This document shows positions 6,198-20,247 of a DNA stretch of 64,000 bases, one piece after another (position 1 is the stretch's first letter; each line of letters begins with the position of its first letter). The stretch comes from Rhizobiales bacterium Y(2018) (GTDB lineage Bacteria; Pseudomonadota; Alphaproteobacteria; Rhizobiales; Aestuariivirgaceae). The notes beneath the pieces are model-generated. The model was given only the letters and a program-made list of their open reading frames with translations, made no database searches and had not been told where the DNA came from. The position numbers and the translations under genes were made by a program. The DNA lies in contig SCPD01000010.1 of NCBI GenBank assembly GCA_005502925.1, forward strand, positions 124,001 to 188,000, given 5' to 3'.

Positions 6198-6263
6198 TTA
6201 TTATGTGATCACAGATTGACAGACGATCTGCCGGTGTGCATTTTATCTGCGATCACATAATAA
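6198..6263 (+). promoter_or_regulatory. Inverted pair of GntR-type operators and promoter of the DUF849 operon
   Basis: TTATTATGTGATCACAGAT at 6198-6216 is repeated in inverted orientation at 6245-6263, differing by one base (TGTGATCGCA core instead of TGTGATCACA). Centres are 47 bases apart. A TTGACA (6216-6221), a plausible -35 box, touches the first copy, and the second copy covers the expected -10 region, so a bound protein would block transcription. The same core occurs in front of the GntR gene and hyuA at 9361 and 9413. The palindromic core fits FadR/FCD-type GntR proteins. Repression by the nearby GntR is inference. Confidence 0.75.
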
Positions 6264-6286
6264 TTCACTCCGGAAGATTGCGACAA

Positions 6287-7177
6287 ATGACCCGTAAAGT
6301 AGTGCTCACCTGCGCCGTCGTCGGCGAAACCAATTTCAACCGCGCTCATCCGAATTTTCCCATCACGCCCAAGCAGATCGCCGATTCGGCGCGCGAGGCC
6401 GAAGAGGCCGGCGCATCGGCGGTTCACCTCCATGTCCGCAATCCGCTCACCGGAGAGGGCACCAGTGACCCTGATCTCTTCCTCGAAATGGCGACGCTGG
6501 TGCGCGACAACGGCGTCAAGGCTGTCATGAACGTCACATGCGGCGGCGGGGGCCTGTTCTTCCCCGATCCGGCGGATGAGGGCCGGGCCGGCCCCGGATC
6601 GGAAATTGCCTCGGCCGAAATGCGTGTGCGCCACATCGAGATGATTCTGCCGGAAATGTGCTCGCTCGACGTTTGCACGCAGAACCAGACGGACGGCGAG
6701 GTCGAGTATGTCTATCTCAACACCCAGGCGACATTGCGCAAGATGGCGCGGCGCTTCCAGGAACTCGGCGTCAAGCCCGAGATCGAGGTCTTCGCGCCGG
6801 GGGACATCCTGCTGGCCAATCGCATGCTCGCCGACGGCCTGTTCGATCTGCCGCCGATGTATCAGATCGTCATGGGGACCAATTGGGGCCTGCCGGCCAC
6901 GCCTGAGACGATGATCTACATGCGCAATCTTCTGCCCGCGGGTGCCAACTGGGCCGCGTTCGGCATCGCCCGGATGCAGATGCCGATGGTGGCCCAGTCG
7001 GTTCTTCTCGGCGGCAACGTACGCGTGGGGCTTGAGGACAATCTCTATCTCAAGCGCGGCGTCTTCGCGACCAACGGGCAACTGGTTGCGCGGGCGCGGA
7101 CGATCATCGAGAGTCTCGGCTTCGAGGTGGCGACACCCGATGAGGCGCGCGAGATACTGGGTCTGAGAAAGCGCTAG
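6287..7177 (+). CDS. Beta-keto acid cleavage enzyme, BKACE/DUF849 family
   Basis: Zinc enzyme of the family that condenses a beta-keto acid with acetyl-CoA and splits it into acetoacetate and a new CoA ester, first known from 3-keto-5-aminohexanoate cleavage in lysine fermentation. The 296-residue protein shows Glu14 (VVGE), the metal ligands His47 and His49 (HLHVRNP), a MNVTCGGGG loop and Glu250 in GLEDN, all in the family's positions. Start is ATG 6287, with a GGAAG site ten bases upstream; codons further upstream lie within the operator. First gene of an operon with the gamma-CA-like (2-base gap) and SDR genes. The exact beta-keto acid is unknown; members differ by a few pocket residues. 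Confidence 0.92.
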   Translation: MTRKVVLTCAVVGETNFNRAHPNFPITPKQIADSAREAEEAGASAVHLHVRNPLTGEGTSDPDLFLEMATLVRDNGVKAVMNVTCGGGGLFFPDPADEGRAGPGSEIASAEMRVRHIEMILPEMCSLDVCTQNQTDGEVEYVYLNTQATLRKMARRFQELGVKPEIEVFAPGDILLANRMLADGLFDLPPMYQIVMGTNWGLPATPETMIYMRNLLPAGANWAAFGIARMQMPMVAQSVLLGGNVRVGLEDNLYLKRGVFATNGQLVARARTIIESLGFEVATPDEAREILGLRKR

Positions 7178-7179
7178 GT

Positions 7180-7770
7180 ATGCAAAGCGCGCGCGAGGAC
7201 GAGCCGCTCTCCGCGGCGGTCTATCTCTATGGCGAAGCTGCGCCGGTGATCCCGGCCACGGCCTTTCTGGCCCCGAGCGCCGTGATCATCGGTGATGTCG
7301 AGATCGGCGAGGGGTCGAGCATATGGTTCGGCGCGGTGCTGCGAGGCGATATCTGTCCGATCAGGATCGGATGCGGGACGAATATCCAGGATGGCGTCAT
7401 CATTCATGGCGATGAGGGTGGCCTCGTCAACATCGCCGATGACGTCACCATTGGCCATGGCGCGATCGTGCATGGCTGCGCTATCGGGGCAAATGCTCTC
7501 ATCGGCATGGGCGCCATTGTGCTCGACAATGCGACCATTGGCGCGGGAGCGCTGATCGGCGCCGGCGCCGTTGTCGCGCCCGGTACGCAAGTGGATCCGC
7601 AAAGTCTCTGGCTCGGATGTCCGGCGCGAAAAATCCGTGATCTTTCGTCGGCCGCAGCTGCGGAACTGCGGTTGGGCGCACAGCACTACCGTGATCAGGC
7701 GCAACTTTACCGATCCGGCCATTTCCGCCGCGCGGCGCCAATTTATCATTCAGCTATCAAGGAGAAATAA
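7180..7770 (+). CDS. Gamma-carbonic-anhydrase-like hexapeptide-repeat protein
   Basis: 196-residue left-handed beta-helix protein. Repeated [IV]G-x-x hexapeptides run through residues 25-145 (IGDVEIGEG, IGANALIGMG, IGAGALIGAG). Metal ligands expected for gamma-class enzymes are present: His in IIHGDE and two His in IGHGAIVHGC; RGD at LRGDICPI is also conserved. Close relatives include YrdA, gamma-carbonic anhydrases and the PaaY/CaiE group, some of which are thioesterases. In this operon a CoA-thioesterase or a role with CO2/bicarbonate for the hydantoinase/carboxylase-type enzyme are both conceivable, but this is inference. The gene begins two bases after the DUF849 stop and ends three bases before the SDR start. 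Confidence 0.88.
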   Translation: MQSAREDEPLSAAVYLYGEAAPVIPATAFLAPSAVIIGDVEIGEGSSIWFGAVLRGDICPIRIGCGTNIQDGVIIHGDEGGLVNIADDVTIGHGAIVHGCAIGANALIGMGAIVLDNATIGAGALIGAGAVVAPGTQVDPQSLWLGCPARKIRDLSSAAAAELRLGAQHYRDQAQLYRSGHFRRAAPIYHSAIKEK

Positions 7771-7773
7771 CAA

Positions 7774-8544
7774 ATGAATCTGCGGGGGCTTCGCGTTCTC
7801 ATTACCGGTGCCGCGGGCGGCGCCGGCGCATCCATCGCGACCTGTTTCGCCCGGGCCGGCGCCTATGTCCATATCGCCGATATCGACGCGCGCGCCGTCA
7901 AGGCGCTGGCCGCGGGCCCGGAGAAGATTTCCGCCAGCATCTGCGACTGCGGCCGCGCCGATGCCGTCGACCAGTTGTTCGAAGAGGCTTCGGCGGCGCT
8001 GGGCGGGCTCGATGTACTCATCAACAATGTCGGGATCGCCGGACCCGCGGCGGCGGCCGAGGACGTGGCGCCGGAGGACTGGGACCGTACGATCGCCGTC
8101 AATCTATCGGGCTTCTTCTATTGCGTCCGCAAGGCCATCCCGCTGCTGAAGCAGGCCGGAGGAGGGACCATTCTCAATGTCTCTTCGACCAGCGCCCGCA
8201 CCGGGCTGCCGCACCGGCTGCCTTATGCGGTCTCGAAAGTCGGCGTCCTCGGGCTGACCGAAACCCTGGCGCGCGAGCTCGGCCCCTTCAACATTCGTGT
8301 GAACTCCATTCTTCCCGGATGGATCAACAATGCCCGCGCCAATTCCATTCTTGAGCGCAAGGCCAAGGAGCTCGGAGTCGAGCCAAAGGTGCTGATGGAG
8401 GAGGAGCTGCAATACATCTCCATGCGCACGCAGATAGAGCCCGAGGAGATCGCGGAGATGATGATGTTCCTGTGCTCGTCAGGTGGACGCCACGTGTCGG
8501 GTCAGCATATCGGCGTATGCGGCAATGCGGAGTATGAAAGGTAG
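7774..8544 (+). CDS. SDR-family NAD-dependent oxidoreductase
   Basis: 256-residue classical short-chain dehydrogenase. It has the nucleotide-binding TGAAGGAG (residues 11-18), Asp36 at the end of the second strand, which favours NAD over NADP, NNVG (84-87), and the catalytic Ser138/139, Tyr151 and Lys155 (YAVSK). AAGGAG lies ten bases before the ATG. It is the third gene of the DUF849 operon. A sensible role is oxidation of a beta-hydroxy acid to the beta-keto acid that DUF849 cleaves; this is inferred from context only. A GntR gene on the other strand ends eight bases downstream, so the operon stops here. Confidence 0.92.
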   Translation: MNLRGLRVLITGAAGGAGASIATCFARAGAYVHIADIDARAVKALAAGPEKISASICDCGRADAVDQLFEEASAALGGLDVLINNVGIAGPAAAAEDVAPEDWDRTIAVNLSGFFYCVRKAIPLLKQAGGGTILNVSSTSARTGLPHRLPYAVSKVGVLGLTETLARELGPFNIRVNSILPGWINNARANSILERKAKELGVEPKVLMEEELQYISMRTQIEPEEIAEMMMFLCSSGGRHVSGQHIGVCGNAEYER

Positions 8545-8552
8545 GATGGCGG

Positions 8553-9317
8553 TCAAGTATCGCGCAGGAACGGCAATATCTCGCGATAAGCGGCCGTAAG
8601 GTCGTTGTGCAATGCCGCCTCCGCCGCATCGGGGTCGTTACTGGCGAGCGCATCGAGCATCTGATCGTGGAATATCGTGGTGCTGATGTCGCTGTCGGCT
8701 GGCCAGTCGCGCTGCAGGGTGGGACCGATGCGAAGCCACAAGGTTTCAATCATCTGGGTGAGGATAGGCGATCCGGAAAGCTTGTAGACCTCGAAGTGGA
8801 AACGGAAATTCACCCGCAAGGTATCGACGGTGGAAATCTTGTCCCTGCTCAACTCGGTGCGATATCGGTCATTGATCCGACGAAGGCTGTCCAGATCCCT
8901 CTCGTGCGCCTTTAGCGCCGCGCAGCGAATGGCATGGCCTTCGAGCTTGAGGCGGATGTCGGTGATCTGGGCGAAGTCGGACTTGTCGGGCGCGTAGACG
9001 AAGAAGGCGCTCTTGCTGCGGCTCACCAGCGCGCCATCCGCTTCAAGGCGCTTGAGCGCTTCGCGGACCGGGGTGAGGCTTACCCCCATCGCCTCGGAGA
9101 GCGAGCGCAGGGTAAGTCCGGCGTTCGGCAGCACACCGCCGCTCATCAGTGAATAACGCAACGCTTCATAGACCTGGCGCTCGGCCGATATGCCTTCGAG
9201 CGGCGTAATCCGCGGCAAATCCGGTGCGCTGGCCTTGGGGCGTCCGGCTCCGGGCCGGCGCTTGCGCACGACCTTGCCGCTCTTCCGCCTCACAGTTTTC
9301 TTCGCCTGCTTTGTCAT
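8553..9317 (-). CDS. GntR-family transcriptional regulator with FCD domain
   Basis: 254-residue DNA-binding regulator. A GntR winged helix spans about residues 48-110 (LTLRSLSEAMGVSLTPVREALKRLE), followed by an all-helical FCD ligand domain (about 120-245), which in the FadR/VanR group binds organic acids, often with a metal held by Asp and His. The first 35 residues are unusually basic and carry RRPGAGRPK, which resembles an AT-hook. The gene lies between the DUF849 and hyu operons and is divergent from hyuA. Operator copies with a TGTGATCACA-like core lie upstream of both operons and of this gene, so autoregulation and control of both operons are likely. The ligand is probably a pathway intermediate; this is inference. 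Confidence 0.92.
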   Translation of the reverse strand: MTKQAKKTVRRKSGKVVRKRRPGAGRPKASAPDLPRITPLEGISAERQVYEALRYSLMSGGVLPNAGLTLRSLSEAMGVSLTPVREALKRLEADGALVSRSKSAFFVYAPDKSDFAQITDIRLKLEGHAIRCAALKAHERDLDSLRRINDRYRTELSRDKISTVDTLRVNFRFHFEVYKLSGSPILTQMIETLWLRIGPTLQRDWPADSDISTTIFHDQMLDALASNDPDAAEAALHNDLTAAYREILPFLRDT

Positions 9318-9354
9318 CGTCCATCGACATTACGGGATTCGGCGCGGAGTTCAA

Positions 9355-9427
9355 TAATCGTGTGATCACAGAACAAAAGCCCGTCGCTTCAGTTGACAGG
9401 CTTTTCTTAATATGAGATCACAGAATA
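9355..9427 (+). promoter_or_regulatory. Operator pair and promoter region between gntR and hyuA
   Basis: Two directly repeated operator copies: core TGTGATCACA (9361-9370, perfect palindrome, preceded by AATAATCG) and TGAGATCACA (9413-9422, within TTAATATGAGATCACAGAAT), 52 bases apart. Between them are a TTGACA (9393-9398), a possible -35 box, and an AAAAGCC...GGCTTTT inverted repeat (9375-9405). The first copy is 44 bases from the gntR start and the second lies downstream of the TTGACA, where it could block hyuA transcription. Same motif as at 6198-6263. Confidence 0.7.
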
Positions 9428-9501
9428 AGAAACAGCGGAATGACAAGCGGCCGCTGACCAATGAGCAGGGAGTCGGCCGGTGGCCGGCAGTGAGGACGTG
9501 C

Positions 9502-11577
9502 ATGCAATTCGCCATTGATACCCGCGGCACCTTTACCGATCTCGTCGTCAAGGACACGTCCGGATTTTGCCGGATGTTCAAGTCCTCGACGACGCCGGCC
9601 GATCCGATTTCCGGTGTGCTCAATGTTCTTGAAGTCGCCGCCGCCGAATATGGAATGACCCGGGAGGCCTTTCTTTCCAAGGGAAGGCTTCTCGTCCACG
9701 GAACGACACATGCACTCAATGCCATCGTCACGAGCCGCACGGCGAAGACCGCGTTCATCACGACCAAAGGCCATGGCGACATGCTTGTGCTGCGCGAGGG
9801 CGGGCGTACGGACCCTTTCAATTTCGATCACCCCAATCCCGAGCCCTATATTCCCCGCGCCTTGACCTTCGAAGTCACCGAACGGATGCTGCCGGATGGA
9901 TCGGTGATGCTTCCGCTCGATGAAGAAGAGCTTGCGGGCATCGCCGCCGCGCTGAAGCAGCTTCGTGTCGAAGCCGTCGCCGTCTGTCTATTGTGGTCGA
10001 TCGTCAATCCGGATCATGAACGGCGCATCGGCACTCTCCTCGCCACACATCTTCCGGGTATTCCTGTCACGCTCTCCCATGAGCTCAACCCGATCATCCG
10101 GGAATTCCGTCGCGCCTCGTCGGCGGCCATAGACGCGTCGCTCAAACCGATGATGGGCATCTACATGTCCAATCTCGAGGCGCGTCTCCGGGGAGCGGGA
10201 TTTCCCGGACGCGTGCTGGTGATCACGTCGCAAGGTGGTGTGATCGATGCTAAGGATGCCGCGACGGCGCCGATCCATATCGTAAACTCCGGGCCTTCCA
10301 TGGCACCGATGGCCGGTCGCCATTTTGCGGCCATCGACGAAGATTCGACGACGGCGATCGTCGCCGATACCGGCGGCACCACCTATGATGTCAGCCTGGT
10401 GCGCAAAGGACATGTCCCCATCATCCGGGAGACATGGATCGGCGCGCCGCATCGGGGCACCATGATCGGATTCCCCTGGGTCGATGTGAAGAGCGTCGGT
10501 GCCGGTGGCGGCTCGATCGCCTGGGTCGATTCCGGCGGACTTCTTCACGTCGGCCCGCAAAGCGCGGGTTCGGTTCCAGGGCCTGTCGCTTATGGAAAGG
10601 GTGGCGTCGAACCCACCGTCACCGACGCATCGCTGGTTCTCGGTCACCTCGATGGCGACTCGTTTCTCGGTGGCGCGATGAAGCTCGACAGGACGCTCGC
10701 GGAGGCGGCGATCCGGACGCGGGTGGCGGAACCGCTCGGTATCTCAGTCGAGGCTGCTGCCGACGCCATACTCGCGGTCGTGACCGAAAACATGGTGCAG
10801 GCCATCAACACGATCACGGTCAATCAGGGAATCGATCCCAAGGATGCCGTCCTCATCGGGGGCGGTGGCGGTGCCGGCTTGAATTCGGTGCGGATCGCCA
10901 AGCGGCTTGGGTGCAGGACCCTGCTGATCCCCGCTGTGGGCGCCGCACTTTCAGCGGCCGGTGCCATGATGTCGGGGCTCAAGGCGCATTATCAAGCAGC
11001 TGCCTTCGCCGCGACGGATCGCTTCGACTTCGATCGCCTTTCGGATGTGCTCAACGGATTGGCCGAGCGCTGCCGGGTTTTTGCCGCCGAGTCGGGCGCG
11101 GGTGCCGAAAGTGTGGAGATCAGCTACACGGCCGACGCCCGTTATTCGACCCAGGTCTGGGAGATAGAGGTCCCGCTGCGGTCCGGCAGAATTCTGACGC
11201 CCGCCGATCTTTGCGCATTCATCGATGACTTCCACGAGACACATCAGGAGCTCTTCAATTTCTCCGATCCGTCGTCTCCCATCGAGATCGTCGGGTGGCG
11301 GGCGCAAGTGCATTGCCGGTTCAAGGATACCGGCGGGATAGACTTGGCCCGTAGCGACGAGGAGGAGATCGCAGCCTCGACGCGGCGCAGCTTCTTCGCG
11401 CAGAAGGGCTGGTGTGACGTGCCTGTCCACAATTTCGAGGCGCTTGCCGTCAATGAATTCATCACCGGACCGCTGATCGTCGAAAGTCCATTCACGACTG
11501 TCGTCATCGAGCCCGGCGTGGCGGTTGCCCGGCGGCCGTCCGGCAGTCTTTCCATAAATATGGCGGTCGCCCAATGA
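9502..11577 (+). CDS. Hydantoinase/oxoprolinase family protein, subunit A
   Basis: 691-residue ATP-binding subunit of the hydantoinase A / 5-oxoprolinase / acetophenone-acetone carboxylase superfamily, which phosphorylates a carbonyl oxygen so that a ring amide is opened or a carboxylation can proceed. Domains: N-terminal Hydant_A_N with DTRGTFTD (residues 6-13, a variant of D-x-GGTFTD), then the actin-like core with ADTGGTTYDVSLV, and the diagnostic SVGAGGGSIAWVD / VGPQSAGSVPGP / PTVTDASLVLG series. The ATG at 9502 has TGAGGA six bases upstream; starting at the upstream ATG 9412 would place the start codon inside an operator. The stop overlaps the subunit B start (ATGA). Substrate is not predictable. 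Confidence 0.92.
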   Translation: MQFAIDTRGTFTDLVVKDTSGFCRMFKSSTTPADPISGVLNVLEVAAAEYGMTREAFLSKGRLLVHGTTHALNAIVTSRTAKTAFITTKGHGDMLVLREGGRTDPFNFDHPNPEPYIPRALTFEVTERMLPDGSVMLPLDEEELAGIAAALKQLRVEAVAVCLLWSIVNPDHERRIGTLLATHLPGIPVTLSHELNPIIREFRRASSAAIDASLKPMMGIYMSNLEARLRGAGFPGRVLVITSQGGVIDAKDAATAPIHIVNSGPSMAPMAGRHFAAIDEDSTTAIVADTGGTTYDVSLVRKGHVPIIRETWIGAPHRGTMIGFPWVDVKSVGAGGGSIAWVDSGGLLHVGPQSAGSVPGPVAYGKGGVEPTVTDASLVLGHLDGDSFLGGAMKLDRTLAEAAIRTRVAEPLGISVEAAADAILAVVTENMVQAINTITVNQGIDPKDAVLIGGGGGAGLNSVRIAKRLGCRTLLIPAVGAALSAAGAMMSGLKAHYQAAAFAATDRFDFDRLSDVLNGLAERCRVFAAESGAGAESVEISYTADARYSTQVWEIEVPLRSGRILTPADLCAFIDDFHETHQELFNFSDPSSPIEIVGWRAQVHCRFKDTGGIDLARSDEEEIAASTRRSFFAQKGWCDVPVHNFEALAVNEFITGPLIVESPFTTVVIEPGVAVARRPSGSLSINMAVAQ

Positions 11578-13349
11578 CCCAACACAACAGCAGAAAGCCC
11601 GCCGTGGATGGTGTGCAGCTCGCCATTCTTGCCCACCGTCTCGAAGGCGTCACGCGTAAGATGGCGAACACGCTCCTGAGAACCGCGCGATCGGGTGTGA
11701 TCAATATCGCCCGTGACTTCTCCTGCTGCATCGTGACCGCCGGCGCCGAGCTCCTGGTCGCGAATGAAGGTCTGCCGATACATGTGCTCGCCGGGCCTGA
11801 CATAATGGCGCGGGTGATGAAGGAGTATAGTCCGGTACTCAAGCGTGGCGATGCCTTCCTCAATAACTCGCCCTATCACGGGTGCAGTCACGCCGCCGAT
11901 CATACGCTCCTGGTCCCCGTCATCGACGATGAGGGCAACCATCGTTTCACCGTACTGGCGAAGGCCCATCAGGCCGATATCGGCAACTCGATCGCGACCA
12001 CGTATCACGGCGCCGCCAGGGATGTTTACGAGGAAGGCGCGCTGATCTTCCCGTCCGTGAAGGTGCAGGAGAATTACGAAACGAACCAGGATTTTGTCCG
12101 CATGTGCCGGATGCGGATCAGGGTGCCTGATCAATGGTGGGGAGATTTCCTGGCCATGGTGGCGTCGGCGCGCATCGGCGAAAGAGAGATCATTGCGCTG
12201 GCGGAAGAAGTCGGTTGGGACACGCTGGAGAATTTCAGCGCCACCTGGCTCGACTACTCCGAGAAACGCATGATGGAGGCCATCACCGCCATGCCGGGTG
12301 GCCGGATGACCCGAACCAGCACGCATGATCGCTTTCCGGGCACACCGGAGGAGGGCATCCCGGTCACCGTCGATGTCTCTCTCGATCCAAGTGAAGCGCG
12401 CATCGCCGTCGACCTTAGCCGCAATCCGGACTGCCTGCCCTGTGGCCTCAATTTGTCGGAAGCCTGCGCGCGCACCGCCGCCATGGTCGGCATATTCAAT
12501 TCCATCGATCACCGGGTTCCCAAGAATGCCGGGTCCTGCCGGCGCATTGATGTCAGCCTGCGCGAGAATTGCGTGGTCGGCATTCCCCGGCATCCCACGT
12601 CCACGTCTGTCGCGACCACAAATGTAGCCGACCGGGTCGCCAATGCCGTCCAGGCTGCGATCGCTGAGATCGCCGATGGGGCAGGCATGGCCGAGTGCGG
12701 TGCCGTCATCGCGCCGGCGGGTGGGGTCATTTCCGGCGTCGACTCGGCCGGGAAGGAATTCGTTAATCAGATTTTCCTCGGTGAGACCGGTGGTGCCGCG
12801 GCGCCGCGCGCCGATGCGTGGCTGATCATCGGGCATGTCGGTGGTGCCGGCATGTGCAATCTGGACAGCGTCGAGCTCGATGAAATGCGCCAGCCCTTGC
12901 GCGTCTTCTCACGCAAGCTGGTGTCCGATACGGAAGGGGCGGGCCGGTTTCGTGGCGCGCCGTCCATGTCGGTCGAATTCGGGCCGGTCGGATGCGATAT
13001 GCAGGTCGCTTATGTGAGCGACGGGACCATGAATGCGGCGCGCGGCGTGCGCGGCGGCGGCGCTGGCGGCAAGGCGGACCAGTTCCGTGTCAGGCGTGAC
13101 GGCACGTTGCAGCGTCTCGATGCCTGCGCCCAGGTCACCATTCATGAGGGTGAGAGGCTGCTGTCGATCTCCTGCGGCGGTGGCGGCTATGGCAATCCGG
13201 TGGAACGCGAGGCGGAGACGGTCGCGCGCGATGTCGCCGAAAAGTGGATATCGGCAGAAAGGGCGCGCGACGTCTATCGCGTGGCTCTTACCGAGGACGG
13301 CTCGCTCGATCGTGATGAGACCGTGAAGCTTCGTCACGCCGAGCGGTAG
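11574..13349 (+). CDS. Hydantoinase/oxoprolinase family protein, subunit B
   Basis: 591-residue partner of the preceding gene, forming the amide-hydrolysing or carboxylating part of the complex. It carries the family's conserved stretch around residue 98 as NNSPYHGCSH, a variant of NDPYxGGTH, followed by HAADHTLLVPV, then ATTYHGAARDVYEEGALIFPSV and the C-terminal glycine-rich VRGGGAGG and SCGGGGYGNP. Start and upstream stop share four bases, so subunits are made together in a fixed ratio. The ABC importer operon continues 37 bases downstream on the same strand. N-methylhydantoinase, caprolactamase-like and carboxylase functions are all possible; the absence of a third small subunit argues against a typical acetone carboxylase. 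Confidence 0.92.
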   Translation: MTQHNSRKPAVDGVQLAILAHRLEGVTRKMANTLLRTARSGVINIARDFSCCIVTAGAELLVANEGLPIHVLAGPDIMARVMKEYSPVLKRGDAFLNNSPYHGCSHAADHTLLVPVIDDEGNHRFTVLAKAHQADIGNSIATTYHGAARDVYEEGALIFPSVKVQENYETNQDFVRMCRMRIRVPDQWWGDFLAMVASARIGEREIIALAEEVGWDTLENFSATWLDYSEKRMMEAITAMPGGRMTRTSTHDRFPGTPEEGIPVTVDVSLDPSEARIAVDLSRNPDCLPCGLNLSEACARTAAMVGIFNSIDHRVPKNAGSCRRIDVSLRENCVVGIPRHPTSTSVATTNVADRVANAVQAAIAEIADGAGMAECGAVIAPAGGVISGVDSAGKEFVNQIFLGETGGAAAPRADAWLIIGHVGGAGMCNLDSVELDEMRQPLRVFSRKLVSDTEGAGRFRGAPSMSVEFGPVGCDMQVAYVSDGTMNAARGVRGGGAGGKADQFRVRRDGTLQRLDACAQVTIHEGERLLSISCGGGGYGNPVEREAETVARDVAEKWISAERARDVYRVALTEDGSLDRDETVKLRHAER

Positions 13350-13386
13350 ACAGGCAGTAATCAAAAAACAAACGAGGGAACGACAG

Positions 13387-14568
13387 ATGAAGAAAATCTA
13401 TGCGATCAAGGCAGCCATGCTGACATTGCTGCTCGGCGGCGGCCATGCACTGGCCGAGGAAGATGTGAAGGTTGGTTTTGCCCTGGCTCTTTCCGGCTTC
13501 ATTGCGCCCTATGACGATGGCCCTTATAAAGCCGCGCAGCTTGCGATCGACGATATCAATGCCAAGGGCGGCCTGCTCGGCAAGAAGCTGATCGCCGTGG
13601 CCTCCGACACGAAATCGGACGTCGATGTCGGCGCCATTGCCGCCACCGATGTCATCGGCAAGGGCGCCCGGATGATCATGGTCACCTGTGATTTCGATTT
13701 CGGCGCGCCGGCGGCCATCGTCGCGCAAAGCCAGAATGTCTTTGCCTTCTCCTCCTGCGCGGCGGATCCGAAATTCGGCGTTCAGGGCATTGGTCCGAAT
13801 GCCTATACGCTGGCCACGGCCACCCTCACGCAGGGTTCGATCTTGGCGGAGTTCGCGTTCAAGCAGGCCAATCTCAAGACGGCCTATCTGCTGACGGATA
13901 CGAGCGGCGAATATATGAAGTCGCTGTGTGCGTCCTTCGAGCGCCGTTTCGTCGAGCTCGCGGGTGATGCCGGCATTGTGGGCAAGGACAATTTCCACGG
14001 CTTGAACGACACCTCCATTGCCGGCCAGATCAGCCGGTTGAAGGCCAGTCCCAAACAGCCGGATGCCGTGATGTTCTGCGGCGCCGGCAGTGCCGGTGCG
14101 TCCTTCATTCGCCAGATCCGCGCAGCCGGCATCGATCTGCCCTTGCTGGCGGGTGAATCGATGGACGGCGCCTATTGGCTGGGTGCCGTCCCTGATCTGA
14201 GCAACTTCTACGTTCTTGCCTATGGCTCGGCGTTCGGCAACGACCCGGATGCCAAGATCAACGATTTCACCACCAGGTTCACGGCCAAATTCGGCGAGCA
14301 GCCGGCGACGTCGCATGCGCTGACCGGATATTCCGTCATCGAGGCCTGGGCGCTTGCCGTGCAGCGGGCCGGCACCTTCGACACGGACGCAGTGCGCGCC
14401 GAACTCGACAAGCTCAAGGACGAGCCGTTCCTTGCCGGGAAAACGAGCTTCTCGCCGGAAGCCCACATAAATCTCGACCGGCCGATGCTTGTCTTCAAGA
14501 TCGTCAATGGCAAGCACGAACCGATCGGGCGCTTCTTGAGTGAAGTGATCCCCGAGCTCAAATTCTGA
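13387..14568 (+). CDS. Branched-chain-amino-acid-type ABC importer, substrate-binding protein
   Basis: 393-residue periplasmic binding protein of the LivJ/LivK type (Peripla_BP_6). A Sec signal peptide (residues 1-21, ending GHALAEE) precedes two alpha/beta lobes with the family pattern VGFALALSGF, DGPYKAAQLAIDDINAKGGLLGKKL and an end segment for ligand closure. GAGGGAACGACAG upstream of the ATG supplies a ribosome site. It begins the importer gene set that follows hyuAB, and the genes for both ATPases and both permeases come directly behind, in the order SBP-G-F-H-M. Such importers take amino acids, amides, urea and aromatic acids; here the substrate is probably what HyuAB acts on or a close product (inference). 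Confidence 0.93.
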   Translation: MKKIYAIKAAMLTLLLGGGHALAEEDVKVGFALALSGFIAPYDDGPYKAAQLAIDDINAKGGLLGKKLIAVASDTKSDVDVGAIAATDVIGKGARMIMVTCDFDFGAPAAIVAQSQNVFAFSSCAADPKFGVQGIGPNAYTLATATLTQGSILAEFAFKQANLKTAYLLTDTSGEYMKSLCASFERRFVELAGDAGIVGKDNFHGLNDTSIAGQISRLKASPKQPDAVMFCGAGSAGASFIRQIRAAGIDLPLLAGESMDGAYWLGAVPDLSNFYVLAYGSAFGNDPDAKINDFTTRFTAKFGEQPATSHALTGYSVIEAWALAVQRAGTFDTDAVRAELDKLKDEPFLAGKTSFSPEAHINLDRPMLVFKIVNGKHEPIGRFLSEVIPELKF

Positions 14569-14586
14569 TCCGCGCCGAGGAGCAGG

Positions 14587-15318
14587 ATGATGAATGCGGC
14601 GCGGCTGACCGCGCGTGATGTCGGCGTCAGTTTCGGCGGGCTCGTGGCGCTCGCTGGAATTGACCTCGATGTCGGCGCCGGTGAGATCGTTGGACTGATC
14701 GGGTCCAATGGAGCCGGCAAGAGCACGATGGTCAATGTGCTCTCCGGCTTTCAAAAACCGTCACGGGGCACTGTCTTTCTCGGCGACATATCGCTTGCGG
14801 GGATGCCTCCGCATCGCATTTCGCGTGCCGGCATCGTTCGGACTTTCCAATCGGTGCGGCTTTTCCGGGATCTGACGGTGGCCGAGAATATCGCGGCAGC
14901 GGTCGCCGTGCTGGGGAAGGGCGCTCCAGATGTAGCGGAGCTGCTCGCCCTCATGGGGCTTTCCGACCTGAAGGAAAAGCCGGCAGGGTCGCTGTCTTAC
15001 GCGCATCAGCGACGGCTGGCGATCGCCCGGGCACTCGGCCTGCGGCCGCGTTTTCTCCTGCTCGATGAGCCGGCGGCCGGCATGACTCCCGGCGAAGTCG
15101 AGGAGCTGGATCGCACGCTCGTGGCTTTGCGCGACCGGACCCAACTGGGGCTGCTGCTGGTCGAGCACAATATGACACTGGTCATGTCGGTCTGCGAGAG
15201 ACTTGTGGTCATGGATGGCGGCCGGGTCATCGCGCGGGGAACGCCCGACTTGATACGTCAGGATCCTCTCGTGCGTCAGGCCTATCTCGGCCATGGAAAA
15301 GTGAGGGAGCACCCGTGA
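14587..15318 (+). CDS. ABC importer ATPase, LivG type
   Basis: 243-residue nucleotide-binding subunit. Walker A is GSNGAGKST (about residues 39-47). The signature is degenerate: LSYAHQRRLAIARAL replaces the canonical LSGGQ-like form, as often in LivG where LSYGxQRRLEIARAL is usual. Walker B is FLLLDEPAAGM, and the H-loop is VEHNM. Start may be ATG 14587 or the next ATG at 14590; GAGGAGCAGG precedes both. Its stop overlaps the GTG start of the LivF-type gene by four bases. It pairs with LivF to drive uptake through the two permeases. Confidence 0.95.
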   Translation: MMNAARLTARDVGVSFGGLVALAGIDLDVGAGEIVGLIGSNGAGKSTMVNVLSGFQKPSRGTVFLGDISLAGMPPHRISRAGIVRTFQSVRLFRDLTVAENIAAAVAVLGKGAPDVAELLALMGLSDLKEKPAGSLSYAHQRRLAIARALGLRPRFLLLDEPAAGMTPGEVEELDRTLVALRDRTQLGLLLVEHNMTLVMSVCERLVVMDGGRVIARGTPDLIRQDPLVRQAYLGHGKVREHP

Positions 15319-16046
15319 CCTTGCTGGCGATCGAAAACATCACAGTGAAATACGGCCCGATACCGGCGATCCGCGACGTCTCGCTGCAGATCGGGGAGGG
15401 CGAGACCCTGGCGGTGGTCGGCGCCAACGGCGCCGGAAAGTCGACCCTGACGCTCGCCATCACCGGCATCGTCAGGCCATCTTCGGGACGGATCGAATTC
15501 TCGGGACGCTCGCTGTTAGGGCTTGGCCCGGAGGCGACGGCGCGCCTCGGCGTGGCGCTGGTTCCCGAGGGGCGTCATATCTTTGAAGGTCTTACCGTCG
15601 ACGAGAATCTGCTGCTCGGCACGACTGTTCTCTCCGATCGGAGTTCCGCCCGGCACGCCATGGCGCAGATCTATGAGATGTTTCCCATTCTGCATGAACG
15701 GCGCAATGGGATGGCGACCCGGCTTTCGGGCGGCGAGCAGCAGCAACTCGCCATTGCACGCGCGCTGCTATCGAAACCCCGCCTGCTGATACTGGACGAA
15801 CCGTCGCTCGGGCTGTCGCCTGTGATGGTCGACAAGATCTATGCGATCCTTGCCGAGTTGAAGAGCCGGGGCACGACCTTGCTGCTGATCGAGCAGAACC
15901 CGGCCCGTATCGATGAGGTTGCCGACCGTGTGATCGTGCTGAGCAGTGGGGCTGTCCAGGCATCGGGGCTTGCCGCCGAGATTCTGGCCGATGAGCAATT
16001 GCATGCCTCCTATCTTGGCGGTGTCGCCCTCGGAGCGCGTCAATGA
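15315..16046 (+). CDS. ABC importer ATPase, LivF type
   Basis: 243-residue second nucleotide-binding subunit, starting at GTG 15315 within GTGA shared with the previous stop. Walker A GANGAGKST (about residues 36-44), signature LSGGEQQQLAIARAL (about 136-150), Walker B LLILDEPSLGLSP, and the H-loop region replaced by LLIEQNPAR, with Gln in place of His as is usual for LivF, which has EQN. VPEGRHIFEGLTVDENLLLG is a clear LivF mark. Translationally coupled to the LivH gene downstream (ATGA). It functions with the LivG-type partner. Confidence 0.95.
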   Translation: MTLLAIENITVKYGPIPAIRDVSLQIGEGETLAVVGANGAGKSTLTLAITGIVRPSSGRIEFSGRSLLGLGPEATARLGVALVPEGRHIFEGLTVDENLLLGTTVLSDRSSARHAMAQIYEMFPILHERRNGMATRLSGGEQQQLAIARALLSKPRLLILDEPSLGLSPVMVDKIYAILAELKSRGTTLLLIEQNPARIDEVADRVIVLSSGAVQASGLAAEILADEQLHASYLGGVALGARQ

Positions 16047-16927
16047 TCTACGTCATCCAGACCCTGGTCGATGCGGTGAGCGTGGGAGCGGTCTATGCGC
16101 TCTCGGCCTTGGGGATCGGCCTGCTCTTCGGCGTCATGCGGCTGGTGAATTTCGCGCAAGGAGAGTTCGTGACCATCGGCATCTACACATTGATGCTCAC
16201 CGTCGGCCTGTGGTTTCCGCTCGCCGCGATCCTGACGGTCTTTGTCGTTGTGCTGCTGGCGCTGCTCGCCGACCGTCTCGCCTTCAAGCCGGTGCGCGAT
16301 GCCGATCCGGCGACGATGCTGATCACAAGCTTTGCGCTCAGCTATCTCCTGCAGAATGTGCTGGTTCTCATCTTCGGGGCGCGACCCATCGGGTTCAACA
16401 TCATCCCTGAACTCGGCTTGCCGGTCATGATCGGAGAGATCCGCATTCCACGCCTGAATATCCTGACGATCTGCGTTGCCGCCGGCCTGCTGACCGGCAT
16501 AGCGCTCTTCCTGCGGCGCACGCGCATCGGGATCGAAATGCGGGCCGCGGCGGTCGATTTCAGAATGGCGCGGCTATTGGGAATCAAGGGCGATCGGGTG
16601 ATCGCCGTCGCCTTCGCCCTGACCGGGGTACTGTCGGCGGTCGTCGCCATTCTCTTCGCGGCGCAGACCGGCACCGCGGCGCCGACATACGGGCTGCAAC
16701 TCGCCTTGGTGGGTTTCGTCGCGACGGTCATCGGTGGAATGGGAAGCCTTGTCGGCGCGGTGTTCGGCGGCATGATCGTCGGCGTCGTGACGGTGTGTCT
16801 GCAGGCTCTGCTGCCACCGGAATTGCGGGTCTTCCGCGAGGCTTTTGTTTATGCCGTGGTCATCGCGATCCTGGTGTTGCGGCCAGATGGACTCTTTCAA
16901 GGTGTCGGCTCGAGGGAGCGCGTATGA
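16043..16927 (+). CDS. ABC importer permease, LivH type
   Basis: 294-residue inner-membrane permease with about eight hydrophobic segments. LivH marks include the N-terminal ALSALGIGLLFGVMRLVNFAQGEF block and, near the middle, RRTRIGIEMRAAAVDFRMARLLGI, the cytoplasmic loop that contacts the ATPase, followed by the VIGGMGSLVGAVFGG segment near residue 235. The start overlaps the LivF-type stop (ATGA) and its own stop overlaps the LivM-type start in the same way. It forms the translocation pore with LivM. Confidence 0.95.
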   Translation: MIYVIQTLVDAVSVGAVYALSALGIGLLFGVMRLVNFAQGEFVTIGIYTLMLTVGLWFPLAAILTVFVVVLLALLADRLAFKPVRDADPATMLITSFALSYLLQNVLVLIFGARPIGFNIIPELGLPVMIGEIRIPRLNILTICVAAGLLTGIALFLRRTRIGIEMRAAAVDFRMARLLGIKGDRVIAVAFALTGVLSAVVAILFAAQTGTAAPTYGLQLALVGFVATVIGGMGSLVGAVFGGMIVGVVTVCLQALLPPELRVFREAFVYAVVIAILVLRPDGLFQGVGSRERV

Positions 16928-17928
16928 TGACGCGGCGCTGGTCGACATTCGCTCTACTGTCTCTGGCGATCCTCGTCGTCGCCGGTATCGGCTGGGCCGG
17001 GTCGGACATTTTCCAGCGTTTTGTCATCGATATGCTGGTGAAGCTGGTCGTGGTGCTGGGCCTGGCTGTCTTCGTGGGAAATTCCGGGGTGTTTTCCTTT
17101 GGGCACGCAAGCTTCGCGGCGCTCGGCGCCTATAGTTCGGCCTGGTTTACCTTGCCGGTGGCCGCCAAGAAGATCTTCCTTCCCCAGCTTCCGGCCTTCG
17201 CACTGTCGACGCAAGTCGGATTGCCGACGGGCGCCGCCATCGGCGTGGCCTTCGCCTCGCTGGTGGGGCTCGCCATCGGGGTGATCATCGTCCAGCTTTC
17301 GGGGCTCGGCGCCAGCATCGCAACCGTCGCCTGGCTCGCCATCGTCACGACGGTTCTCGCCAATGCCGATGCCTATACACGGGGCACGAGCTCGCTGGTC
17401 GGCCTGCCGCTCGCAACCGGCATCGGCGCGGCTCTGGTCTCGGCGCTTCTGGCGCTGTTCATCGCCTTCCTGTTCAAGACGTCGCGCTACGGCCTGATGC
17501 TGCAAGCTTCGCGCGAGGACGAGGTGGCGGCCAAGGCCACCGGCATCTCGGTTCGCGCCGTGCGCCTGTGGGCCTTTGTTCTGTCCGCCGCGCTGGTGGC
17601 ACTTGGCGGCATATTGCAAGGCCACTTCCGCGGCGTATTGACGGTCAGCCAGTTCTATTTCGAATTCACCTATCTGACGCTCGCGATGCTCGTCATTGGC
17701 GGAATCAGAAGTCTTTCCGGCGCGGTCATTGGCACATTCCTGGTGGCGGGCTGTGCCGAGATGCTGCGCATCGTTTCGGGTGGCTTCGAGATCGCCGGCC
17801 TGATGGTGCCGGCGCTGCCGGGCTTACGGGAAATCGGCCTCGCTTTGATGATGCTGATCGTGCTTCTGGCGCGGCCCCGTGGCATCATGGGCAGCCGCGA
17901 ATTCACGTGGCCCGTGAAAACAGGTTAA
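16924..17928 (+). CDS. ABC importer permease, LivM type
   Basis: 334-residue second permease. LivM marks include GNSGVFSFGHASFAALGAY, the coupling loop TSRYGLMLQASREDEVAAKATGI (about residues 183-205) and VIGGIRSLSGAVIGT. The ATG at 16924 (or the adjoining ATG 16927) overlaps the LivH stop; upstream in-frame codons fall inside livH and are rejected. Last gene of the hyu-liv run: its stop overlaps the stop of a convergent MFS gene by four bases, so no room is left for a separate terminator. Confidence 0.94.
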   Translation: MMTRRWSTFALLSLAILVVAGIGWAGSDIFQRFVIDMLVKLVVVLGLAVFVGNSGVFSFGHASFAALGAYSSAWFTLPVAAKKIFLPQLPAFALSTQVGLPTGAAIGVAFASLVGLAIGVIIVQLSGLGASIATVAWLAIVTTVLANADAYTRGTSSLVGLPLATGIGAALVSALLALFIAFLFKTSRYGLMLQASREDEVAAKATGISVRAVRLWAFVLSAALVALGGILQGHFRGVLTVSQFYFEFTYLTLAMLVIGGIRSLSGAVIGTFLVAGCAEMLRIVSGGFEIAGLMVPALPGLREIGLALMMLIVLLARPRGIMGSREFTWPVKTG

Positions 17929-19085
17929 GCACGTCTTGCGGCGCGACCCGCGCTTGCCGTGCGGGCGGCGATGGCGACAACGAAGGCGGCAAAGACCATC
18001 GCCGTCGCGTAGGGCAGGCCGTCGGGACCGAACCGGTCCATGGCCCAGCCACCGATGAGAGCGCCAACCAGGGCGCCGGCGCCCCACGTGGTGGAGAAGG
18101 CCGCCGTGCCGGCGACAAGCTCATTGCCGGAGAAACGTTCGCCGAGCTCGGCCAGCGCCATGGTGTAGATGCCGGCCGAGGTGGCGCCGGTTACGACCAG
18201 CACGGGCCAGAGCAACCAGGTGCCGAAGGCGGAGGGAATGAGGGCGCTGCCGATAACGGTGGTGAAGGCGCACACCACCATCATGCCGCGCTTGCTCCAG
18301 TGGTCGGCAATCCAGCCGATGGGGAATTGCAGCCCGGCATTGCCGATGATGAAAGCGGTCAGCATCAGCGCCGCGGTTTCCTGGTCGAAGCCTTTCTTGA
18401 CGCCATAGACGGGCATCAGGCCCAGATAGGCAGCGTCGATGACGGCAAACAGGGTCACGGCGCTGATCAGGATGGGCGCCAGACGCGCGAAGCCCAGGAT
18501 GGAAAGCTGACGCTCCCCGGTTTCGGGCACAAGGGTGCCGATCGAGCGGTAGTAGAACATCGGTATCGTGCTGGCGGCCAAGAAGCCGGCGCCGATGAAG
18601 AAGGGCAATATGGTTTCGATGCCGGTGAAGCTGATCAGCGCCGAGCCGAGGCCGAAGCTCACGGACAGGATGCTGGCATAAAGCGCCATGATGCGCGAGC
18701 GCGCCGGTCCGAAGGCCGCCTCGACCACCCAGGCCTCGCTTACCGTGAACAGCGCCCCGACAGCGAGGCCGTGGAGGAAGCGAAGCACGAACCACGCCCA
18801 GTATATCGGCGTGAAGGGATAGGCCACGATTATCGCAGCGGTCAGGAAGGCGGCGACGATCGCCACCGGCCGGGTACCCAGGCGACTCGTCAGATGCGGC
18901 ACGAGGAAGCCCGAGACCAGGATGCCCAAGGGCTGCATCGCCGTGTTGATACCGATCACCTTGGGCGGTACGCCGTGCTTCTCCATAACCAGGGAGAGCA
19001 GGGGAAATACGAGCCCGAGCGCGAAGCCGAAAACGGTGACGGCCGAGATGGCGGCGAAGAGATTGATCCAGCGCTGTCTATCCAT
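17925..19085 (-). CDS. MFS transporter, tandem copy 2
   Basis: 386-residue major facilitator protein with about twelve transmembrane segments. It shows the cytoplasmic loop pattern after helix 2 (LTSRLGTRPVAIVAA) and GAIGGWAMDRFG-like glycines late in the protein. It is homologous to the gene just upstream: both share FLHG/FFGMAAG(T/A)LFTVSEAWx(V/M), GLQFPIG/LLQLPIG and DHWSKRGM/DRWSRLGV segments, so the pair arose by tandem duplication. Its start overlaps the end of the first copy by eight bases, indicating one transcript. Substrate is unknown. It converges with the importer operon at 17928. Confidence 0.88.
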   Translation of the reverse strand: MDRQRWINLFAAISAVTVFGFALGLVFPLLSLVMEKHGVPPKVIGINTAMQPLGILVSGFLVPHLTSRLGTRPVAIVAAFLTAAIIVAYPFTPIYWAWFVLRFLHGLAVGALFTVSEAWVVEAAFGPARSRIMALYASILSVSFGLGSALISFTGIETILPFFIGAGFLAASTIPMFYYRSIGTLVPETGERQLSILGFARLAPILISAVTLFAVIDAAYLGLMPVYGVKKGFDQETAALMLTAFIIGNAGLQFPIGWIADHWSKRGMMVVCAFTTVIGSALIPSAFGTWLLWPVLVVTGATSAGIYTMALAELGERFSGNELVAGTAAFSTTWGAGALVGALIGGWAMDRFGPDGLPYATAMVFAAFVVAIAARTASAGRAARRA

Positions 19086-20247
19086 GCGCCACTCCCTGCA
19101 CCAGCCGGCCGCGCGAGAGGCCGAGACCTATGAGCAGGATGATGTAGATGGCCGTGACTGTGATCGGGATGGCGATGATGCCGAAGGCGTCGGTTGCAGC
19201 CCCAGCGATCGGCGGGCCCAATATGCCGCCGACACCCCACATGGCGGCAAAAGCGGCGCTTCCGGCGATGAGATCGGGGCCTTTGAAATTATCGCCGAGG
19301 ATGGTGAGGGCGATGGTGTAGATCGCATAGGCGGTGGTGCCGAGGACCAGCATCACCGGCCAGATCAGCCAGGACTGGATCGTCCAGATCATCGACAAAG
19401 CCAGCACCGCGGTGATGATGGCCGAAAGCACGATCACGCCGAGCCTGGACCATCTGTCGGCAAGAAGGCCGATCGGCAGTTGCAATAATGCATTGCCGAT
19501 GATCGAGACGCCGAGGATGGTGGTCACCTGCTCGACGGGAAGCCCGGAGCGCAGCCCGAAGATCGGGAAGAAGGACAGGATGACCGAATCGAAGAAGGTG
19601 AGCGTGCCGACGGCGAAGAGCAACAGCGGCGCCCGGCCCACGAAAGCCCAGAAGCCGCCGCCTTCCTCATGCCGGAAGGAGTCTTCGGAGATGCGCAGGA
19701 AGGTGAGCGGCACGGCGCTCATGCCGACGCACAAAATGCCGATCAGCCAGGGCGCCCAGCCGTCGATGCCGGTGAGCGGGATGATCAGCGGGCCGATCGA
19801 AAAACTGACGGCGAGCACGCTCGTATAAAGGCCCATGGTGCGGCCGCGGTTGCTCTGCTGGGCGCCGCTCATGATCCAGGCCTCGCTCACCGTGAACAAG
19901 GTGCCGGCGGCCATGCCGAAGAAGAAGCGGATGGCGAACCACGCCCACACGCTGGGGAACAGCTTGAAGGCGGCAAGCGTCGCCATGGTGACGAGAATGG
20001 CGATGTAAACGACGCGCTTGGAGCCGAAGCGCGAAACGATGCGCGGCAGAAACGGGCCGCCGATCATGATACCGAGCGGCGACATGGCGGCGTTGAGACC
20101 CATGATCCAGGCCGGAACATGGCTCTTCTCCATCAGCAGCGGCAGCATCTGCAAAGTGAGGCCCATGGCGATGTCGCAGGAAGCGACGGTCGCGATGGCG
20201 GCGACAATCGTCCGGTAGCGCTGCGCGAATGGCAAAGGCGCCGACAT
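19078..20247 (-). CDS. MFS transporter, tandem copy 1
   Basis: 389-residue major facilitator protein with about twelve transmembrane segments, first gene of a two-gene operon on the minus strand. The loop VSRFGSKRVVYIAI after helix 2 and the IRFFFGMAAGTLFTVSEAW segment are of the sugar/drug transporter type often labelled YcaD-like, but I cannot assign a substrate. It is divergent from the MBL hydrolase gene (about 118 bases between starts). Two adjacent homologous MFS genes could form a hetero-dimer-like pair or be two specificities; nothing in the sequence decides. Confidence 0.88.
   Translation of the reverse strand: MSAPLPFAQRYRTIVAAIATVASCDIAMGLTLQMLPLLMEKSHVPAWIMGLNAAMSPLGIMIGGPFLPRIVSRFGSKRVVYIAILVTMATLAAFKLFPSVWAWFAIRFFFGMAAGTLFTVSEAWIMSGAQQSNRGRTMGLYTSVLAVSFSIGPLIIPLTGIDGWAPWLIGILCVGMSAVPLTFLRISEDSFRHEEGGGFWAFVGRAPLLLFAVGTLTFFDSVILSFFPIFGLRSGLPVEQVTTILGVSIIGNALLQLPIGLLADRWSRLGVIVLSAIITAVLALSMIWTIQSWLIWPVMLVLGTTAYAIYTIALTILGDNFKGPDLIAGSAAFAAMWGVGGILGPPIAGAATDAFGIIAIPITVTAIYIILLIGLGLSRGRLVQGVAHG

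Follow-up and report, generated by a model that had tools for sequence, protein, structure and literature searches.

The described systems closest to the locus reported here come largely from Pseudomonas. In the carnitine catabolism of Pseudomonas aeruginosa, carnitine dehydrogenase is followed by a beta-keto acid cleavage enzyme (BKACE, DUF849) and by betainyl-CoA conversion (PMC12482172). The deoxyribonate cluster of Pseudomonas simiae holds a GntR regulator, a short-chain dehydrogenase/reductase (SDR), a BKACE, a lactonase and two MFS genes, carries the palindrome GTGATCAC and leads to glyceryl-CoA (PMC6365646). Caprolactamase CapAB of Pseudomonas jessenii is a two-subunit HyuAB-type enzyme with a D-H-D-H metal site that requires bicarbonate besides ATP (PMC8453981). 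Here we analysed a 64-kb stretch (the window) of the 7.1-Mb genome of Rhizobiales bacterium Y(2018) (contig C1, 124001-188000), in which an island at 6198-17928 combines BKACE, hexapeptide-repeat, SDR and GntR genes with hyuAB and a Liv-type importer. That the two operons of this island form one inducible pathway is well supported.

The island resembles each described system in part. It shares with the carnitine route the series of dehydrogenase, BKACE and CoA release, and its nearest BKACE relatives outside its own group are carnitine-operon enzymes, but it has an SDR in place of a 3-hydroxyacyl-CoA dehydrogenase (3HCDH), a HyuAB front end and a BKACE with 15 group-specific alignment columns. 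The P. aeruginosa carnitine genes are reportedly named CdhABC and are said to have an AraC-type regulator, unlike the GntR regulator of the island. The P. simiae cluster has the same GntR, SDR and BKACE combination with GTGATCAC, and two MFS genes also adjoin the island, but HyuAB and a Liv importer stand here instead of a lactonase. CapAB matches the island enzyme in two-subunit architecture and metal site and is its best-scoring solved structure, although the pathway context is different and the first ATP motif of the island HyuA is altered. Acetophenone and acetone carboxylases have homologous ATP-binding and metal-site subunits but score lower. By analogy, the layout is best explained as a copy of the carnitine route (hydroxy-acid dehydrogenase, BKACE, CoA release) with a putative lactam-opening front end.

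Pfam and NCBIfam profiles placed all the genes that a first-pass annotation, made from the letters alone, had named in the island. Two operons flank a GntR/FCD gene: BKACE-hexapeptide-SDR, with genes spaced 2-3 bp apart, and HyuA-HyuB-SBP-LivG-LivF-LivH-LivM (SBP, solute-binding protein), with 4-base overlaps at the HyuA/HyuB, LivG/F, LivF/H and LivH/M junctions (Table 1). The regulator gene is convergent with the SDR gene and divergent from hyuA. The five ABC genes noted behind hyuAB are present and make up a complete Liv/HAAT set (one SBP, two ATPases, two permeases), but their order is not the standard one that had been claimed: it is SBP-G-F-H-M, and the Escherichia coli liv order is said to be H-M-G-F. 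With 8 BKACE matches and 11 HyuB matches in the genome (two of the latter in one open frame), neither family is remarkable here by itself.

Operator sites and gene linkage

The sequence TGNGATCNCA occurs four times in the window, twice in each of the two promoter gaps with spacings of 44 and 52 bp, and nowhere else in the 64 kb. Allowing up to one mismatch, TGTGATCACA gave four matches, at 6204, 6248, 9361 and 9413, all within the same two gaps, which bears out the earlier call of operators before both operons; shuffled sequences averaged 1.07 matches and 2 of 100 shuffles reached four, with clustering not demanded. Across the whole genome, a 15-base form of the operator with up to two mismatches gave 28 strand matches, one site being counted on both strands, against 1 for a reversed control. 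Only four genome matches had zero or one mismatch, three of them in the island. One two-mismatch match (C32:103059) sits 53 bp from the start of a BKACE paralogue that is 84% identical.

Related loci (denoted L) were drawn from a BKACE pattern scan of 84,980 species genomes, which was not exhaustive: it found 419 relatives, and the 80 best were carried forward. Among these 80, 19 loci (L009-L027) encode proteins at least 58% identical to the island BKACE, and plasmid records added five more, 55-81% identical (L148-L152). We searched the window and 25 loci (these 24 and L146) for exact TGNGATCNCA, a form picked after the sites had been seen, and found 22 matches, or 18 when L009, a near copy of the window, is excluded. 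Thirteen of the 18 lie at promoters of pathway genes: the four in the window, those of L010 and L149 (each at SDR and at BKACE/GntR), two in the GntR/BKACE gap of L015, one before BKACE in L026, and those of L148 at GntR and in the divergent HyuA/SDR gap. The operator-bearing operon of L010 is the paralogous BKACE operon of a near relative. The other five matches are off pathway promoters (L010 at 20411, L020, L023, L027 and L150), and a scan of 19 loci with TGTGATCACA at up to one mismatch gave four matches away from such promoters (L010, L014, L021 and L025). In L148 alone, three operator copies compare with 0.78 expected, a level seen in 6 of 100 shuffles, so that the count is unremarkable and the position is what matters. 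Regulators 54-63% identical to the island GntR accompany the operator in L010, L149 and L015. The operator is thus conserved only in part. The same core has been reported for the GntR of the P. simiae deoxyribonate cluster and for AkgR (PMC6365646); because it is also the AkgR motif, it marks the type of regulator and not the substrate.

Gene linkage was seen beyond the window's own lineage. HyuB at E <=1e-100 was present in 7 of the 17 genomes that hold the 19 near BKACE loci, in 11 places, and all seven carry one HyuB copy within about 10 kb of BKACE, where far fewer than 0.1 such cases would be expected by chance (about 20 kb of a 5-Mb genome counted as near). On plasmid p2 of Cupriavidus pinatubonensis HN-2 (L148), a GntR gene is followed by hyuA-hyuB-gammaCA (CA, carbonic anhydrase), divergent from SDR-SDR-BKACE, and the locus carries the operator. 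In L146, from a genome of the window's own order (G336), a BKACE 33% identical to that of the island precedes HyuAB-SBP-LivGFHM-SDR-SDR-GntR and then an acetoacetate-CoA ligase (913 bits, cut-off 521). The first-pass annotation had asked whether the gene set recurs in other genomes, and these loci answer that it does. Because a similar set occurs in distant bacteria, the island looks like a genuine breakdown pathway. The annotation's idea of one inducible pathway likewise held up, through linkage in alpha-, beta- and gammaproteobacteria together with the operator at matching promoters in L149, L015, L026, L148 and L010.

The HyuB tree (48 rows) points the same way. Its 11 BKACE-linked rows need five changes, at least four of them forced by well-supported branches, compared with a mean of 10.1 under label shuffles, none of which (0/500) came as low as five; the HyuAB-BKACE partnership therefore recurs in several HyuB lineages. 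For this tree L012 was left out, its gene being truncated by the limits of the locus; the unlinked L118 and the linked L146 are one and the same gene, L009 is the near copy of the window, and the linked rows L051 and L084 are distant (25% identical). The BKACE clade itself, at E 1e-95, was found in 2 of 399 genomes of the order of Ramlibacter and in 1 of 369 of the class of Exilibacterium; two of these three are the centre genomes and the third is G518, with a BKACE 54% identical.

Predicted enzymes and the proposed route

The island BKACE covers positions 1-274 of its Pfam profile, far above the cut-off of 24.8 bits, and in alignment with 2y7d it keeps the HxH (HLHVR) and Glu (GLEDN) residues that we take to be the metal ligands of Kce. 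It falls below the NCBIfam equivalog cut-off for the Kce of lysine fermentation (230 vs 382 bits). The family reaction predicted for it converts a beta-keto acid and acetyl-CoA to an acyl-CoA and acetoacetate. The next relatives, from 61 loci and with about 47-53% identity, belong for the most part to carnitine operons: a 3HCDH-type gene stands within 1.5 kb of BKACE in 36 of the 61, and all three dehydrogenases tested exceed the L-carnitine dehydrogenase cut-off. We compared the near group (25 rows: the window, the 19 loci and the five plasmid loci) with 37 dehydrogenase-linked sequences, namely these 36 and that of L146, itself no carnitine locus. The groups differ at 15 columns, with each group's residue above 75%, including 85 C/A, 87 G/M, 130 T/G and 134 Q/F; several of the others are conservative.

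HyuA and HyuB domains lie on two subunits. Among solved relatives, HyuA scores best against caprolactamase CapA (6yra_A, 448 bits), followed by N-methylhydantoinase (331) and the carboxylases (at most 287), and HyuB follows the same order (6yra_B, 174 bits; 108; at most 99). Alignment to 6yra_B shows that HyuB keeps the D-H-D-H metal ligands named for caprolactamase (PMC8453981). Scores against the acetophenone carboxylase models fell below their equivalog cut-offs (ApcC 302 vs 1500, ApcA 178 vs 1250, ApcD 104 vs 1500).

The hexapeptide-repeat protein keeps three His residues in alignment to 9qev, which are presumably the metal ligands of a gamma carbonic anhydrase. It scores below the cut-offs for gamma carbonic anhydrase (NF050158, 182 vs 250 bits) and for the PaaY equivalog (131 vs 319.6 bits). 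PaaY, of the same superfamily, is a thioesterase (PMC9493321), so that acyl-CoA hydrolase is a fair guess for the island protein by analogy, with bicarbonate supply as a carbonic anhydrase a possible alternative. Because caprolactamase needs bicarbonate, a neighbouring carbonic anhydrase would suit a hydrolase as well as a carboxylase. The protein accompanies BKACE in the window, L009, L148, L149, L151 and L158, the last three with no HyuAB in the stretch, although on the L158 plasmid a HyuAB set (L157) lies about 30 kb from the BKACE/hexapeptide stretch. A hotdog thioesterase accompanies BKACE in L011, L012 (Pfam-tested), L013, L023 and L152, and accompanies HyuAB in L154 and L155, with no BKACE in those two stretches.

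The partners of BKACE bear on the order of steps. HyuAB occurs in 9 of the 25 rows of the near group, and an SDR at least 42% identical to that of the island is present in 8 of these 9 but also in 4 of the 16 rows without HyuAB in the stretch (L010, L011, L021 and L149). L010 and L149 combine the SDR (75% and 72% identical), GntR and BKACE with genes for a Gfo/Idh oxidoreductase and for a different kind of ABC importer (named by eye in L010), while a C45 acyltransferase/hydrolase in L011 and a penicillin amidase in L021 stand beside SDR and BKACE. The occurrence of SDR with BKACE without HyuAB suggests a direct supply of BKACE by the SDR, with HyuAB as an interchangeable entry step. On the simplest reading HyuAB would be one of several amide-breaking front ends, which speaks, though not decisively, against the fixed SDR-HyuAB-BKACE order of a carboxylase model.

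We therefore lean, by a narrow measure, towards a single pathway, inducible and under local GntR control, in which a hydroxylated cyclic amide is imported, opened, oxidised and cleaved to an acyl-CoA and acetoacetate, with hydrolysis of the acyl-CoA. The Liv-type importer would take up a small, probably hydroxylated, cyclic amide, and HyuAB, using ATP and, like caprolactamase, probably also bicarbonate, would open the ring to a beta-hydroxy acid bearing an amino or amide group. The SDR, whose pairing with BKACE is observed, would oxidise the beta-hydroxyl to give a beta-keto acid, which BKACE would cleave with acetyl-CoA in its family reaction. The acyl-CoA would then be hydrolysed, possibly by the hexapeptide (PaaY/CaiE-like) protein, for which some relatives may use a hotdog thioesterase instead. 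A lactam of a gamma-amino-beta-hydroxy acid, such as 4-hydroxy-2-pyrrolidinone, is the leading but quite tentative substrate candidate. The sequence of amide opening, beta-hydroxy oxidation and BKACE cleavage set out in the first-pass annotation is also our best reading, given SDR-BKACE pairs without HyuAB, with its lactam-like substrate reduced to a candidate. The acetoacetate product that it had named fits the acetoacetate-CoA ligase of L146 and the CoA-transferase genes that adjoin BKACE in L151 (with a thiolase gene) and HyuAB in L154/L155. The carnitine-operon kinship of BKACE, the possibility that the hexapeptide protein is a thioesterase and the HyuA arginine described below go beyond what it had proposed.

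The remark in the first-pass annotation that this combination matched no pathway familiar to it agrees with our literature search. No open-access paper was found that pairs "3-keto-5-aminohexanoate cleavage" or "DUF849" with "hydantoinase", subscription literature being mostly outside the search, and no such pathway was evident from the titles and opening lines of abstracts of related papers, PMC6365646, PMC12133276 and PMC12482172 among them. A search on the degradation of gamma-amino-beta-hydroxybutyric acid (GABOB) returned nothing relevant, mostly beta-lactam papers.

Several observations weigh against the proposed route. The operator stands at pathway promoters in 5 of the 24 loci searched besides the window and L009 and not in 19, the Cupriavidus GntR is only 28% identical to that of the island, and L146 has neither the operator nor, in the stretch searched, a CA gene. 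HyuAB stretches were taken from 17 of the 27 other genomes among the 28 of 397 same-order genomes (the window's included) with HyuB at 1e-150, and BKACE lies beside HyuAB only in G336 (L146); with one case in 17, this HyuAB group therefore mostly serves other pathways. Three other close HyuAB copies in the window genome (L128-L130) are without BKACE, and HyuAB was seen in 2 of the 61 more distant BKACE loci (L051 and L084), many of those loci being short. The swap of HyuAB for another amide hydrolase is suggested by one locus each (L011 and L021). The hexapeptide protein and the thioesterase each occur in 5 of 25 rows, both in none and neither in 15, a non-overlap with a chance of about 0.29. 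HyuA lies far below the caprolactamase cut-off of 1000 bits (558 bits; NF050156/NF050157: 558 and 248). Its first phosphate motif reads DTRGTFTD and departs from DxGGTxTD by an Arg (codon 8, CGC, 9523-9525) in place of the first Gly of this gamma-phosphate motif, while all 33 other rows of a 34-row motif survey, in which L100 and L131 are one gene, have GGT, including the 94% identical HyuA of L009; judged from sequence, HyuAB may be weak or inactive in the window strain, or the change may be an assembly error.

Competing explanations

HyuAB could instead be a two-subunit ATP-dependent ketone carboxylase, with the SDR turning a secondary alcohol into a methyl ketone, HyuAB carboxylating this to a beta-keto acid with bicarbonate from the gamma-CA, and BKACE cleaving the product without a CoA ligase. 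HyuA does match subunits of acetophenone carboxylase (287 bits) and of acetone carboxylase (194 bits), the gamma-CA gene directly follows hyuB in Cupriavidus, and such a carboxylase would account for the recurrence with HyuAB of BKACE, which needs a beta-keto acid. We consider this unlikely, since caprolactamase and N-methylhydantoinase score higher and the SDR appears to feed BKACE directly where HyuAB is missing beside the pair, in L149 (which has CA) and L010; the acetone carboxylase gamma subunit (PF08882) had no match in the genome, a weak point as the control also matched nowhere. It is more doubtful still that the HyuAB enzymes of this group, helped by a dedicated gamma-CA, serve a CoA-ligase-free carboxylate-and-cleave ketone route or a loop that repairs decarboxylated beta-keto acids. 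A route for sugar acids resembling the breakdown of deoxyribonate, in which a hydroxy acid or lactone is imported and SDR and BKACE act as in P. simiae with HyuAB in place of the lactonase, is improbable. It would fit the gene content and palindrome of the P. simiae cluster (PMC6365646), the two MFS genes next to the island and the Gfo/Idh oxidoreductases of L010 and L149, a family with many sugar dehydrogenases. However, HyuAB enzymes as described in the literature consulted act on amides or ketones and not on lactones, profile searches found no lactonase among the island genes, no operator copy accompanies the adjoining MFS genes, and GTGATCAC, as also an AkgR motif, leaves the substrate open to either reading. 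Among the BKACEs compared, moreover, carnitine-operon enzymes are the next relatives.

That kinship raises the prospect that the substrate of the island is a quaternary or tertiary amine resembling carnitine, such as an amide or D-form, with BKACE acting on dehydrocarnitine or a near analogue. Two loci with distant HyuAB (25-33% identical) beside BKACE and a carnitine-dehydrogenase-like gene are in line with it: L051 (8485-14826, a SAR324 bacterium), one of the 36 with a 3HCDH-type gene, and L084 (4821-11821, an alphaproteobacterial metagenome-assembled genome (MAG)), whose dehydrogenase was named by eye. It seems quite improbable, because the window BKACE group differs at the 15 columns, 87 and 134 among them, and no carnitine dehydrogenase was found among the island genes by profile searches. 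Six 3HCDH-type matches occur in the genome, all off contig C1 and all below the L-carnitine dehydrogenase cut-off. BKACE and 3HCDH genes are paired at C35 and C22, where the dehydrogenases reach 356 and 179 bits against that cut-off of 414, so that carnitine may have a route of its own in this genome. Finally, it is very improbable that the operons are separate pathways sharing only a regulator and a neighbourhood. Same-order HyuAB relatives mostly lack BKACE, and BKACE with SDR occurs without HyuAB, but this is outweighed by adjacency in all seven HyuB-bearing genomes of the BKACE clade, the operator at both promoters and the similar gene sets of L148 and L146.

Other features and the wider families

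Feature coordinates are collected in Table 1. The first ATG of the hyuA frame, at 9412, touches an operator, whereas homologues begin at 9502. The only PDB match of the SDR at 1e-40 is 5unl (225 bits), and a structure predicted for the SBP from its single sequence had a mean pLDDT of 44.8, too low for use. Open reading frames in the fetched loci were called with a crude script, so that some high-GC genes were missed or misplaced, and some families there were named by eye.

Table 1. Features of the island, with positions in the 64-kb window
Feature	Position	Strand	Evidence and remarks
Paired operator upstream of BKACE	6201..6259		Cores 6204-6213 and 6248-6257, 44 bp apart; repeat search, sequence, genome scan
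BKACE / DUF849 beta-keto acid cleavage enzyme	6287..7177	+	PF05853 301 bits; 410.6 bits to PDB 3c6c
Hexapeptide-repeat gamma-carbonic-anhydrase/PaaY/CaiE-like protein	7180..7770	+	NF050158 182 bits, PaaY 131 bits
SDR dehydrogenase, proposed beta-hydroxy acid oxidation	7774..8544	+	PF13561/PF00106
GntR/FCD regulator	8553..9317	-	PF00392 and PF07729
Paired operator upstream of hyuA	9358..9425		Cores 9361-9370 and 9413-9422, 52 bp apart
HyuA-type ATP-binding subunit	9502..11577	+	PF01968/PF05378/PF19278; start from homology
HyuB-type metal-site subunit	11574..13349	+	PF02538 390 bits
Periplasmic solute-binding protein (SBP), Liv/HAAT type	13387..14568	+	PF13458 162 bits
LivG-like ATPase	14587..15318	+	PF00005 and PF12399
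LivF-like ATPase	15315..16046	+	PF00005 113 bits; 47% to L146 LivF
LivH-like permease	16043..16927	+	PF02653 111 bits; UrtB/LivH models
LivM-like permease	16924..17928	+	PF02653 92 bits; UrtC/LivM models

The nearest named relative found, Aestuariivirga sp. YIM B02566 (L009), has the eleven island genes with 93-99% protein identity, LivM being only partial because the locus ends there. In the window, two tandem MFS_1 genes on the minus strand (17928-20247) adjoin the island, convergent with livM, with no operator copy nearby.

Related loci show both families in other company, and HyuB was rejected as a marker of this pathway because most same-order relatives have other partners. A Variovorax paradoxus plasmid (L153, 6247-21181) has HyuAB, GntR and SDR genes with a further SDR, a thiolase and an acyl-CoA ligase and no BKACE in the stretch, perhaps the same scheme in CoA-bound form. 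On a Rhizobium laguerreae plasmid (L156, 4627-13183), HyuAB is accompanied by a LacI regulator, an SDR and aminotransferases of class IV and of the aspartate family, a setting in which this HyuAB group probably serves another pathway. The BKACE gene of a Sinorhizobium mexicanum plasmid (L150, 1712-13116; 60% identical to the window's) lies between a large nonribosomal peptide synthetase/polyketide synthase gene and a MATE exporter gene, and near conjugation genes on a Sinorhizobium chiapasense plasmid (L158, 16737-17087) there is a second BKACE-like gene, a short one with 67% identity along the fragment. In Bacteroidota MAGs (L018, 8019-12863; L016, L019 and L020), two conserved cysteine-rich proteins follow BKACE and AraC-like, 3HCDH and permease genes precede it, named by eye except for the L018 3HCDH.

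Proteins of the HyuAB and DUF849/BKACE families are common, many of them without a known substrate. The link between them arose several times and so offers a handle on both, as the product of HyuAB has to end up as a beta-keto acid open to cleavage by BKACE; in one named organism with the link, the BKACE sequence reads identical to the solved protein 3c6c. The link would also decide between amide hydrolysis and ketone carboxylation for this HyuAB group, and would explain the gamma-carbonic-anhydrase-like gene that accompanies these genes in several genomes. The island would add a variant with a HyuAB front end to a known catabolic design that terminates in BKACE.

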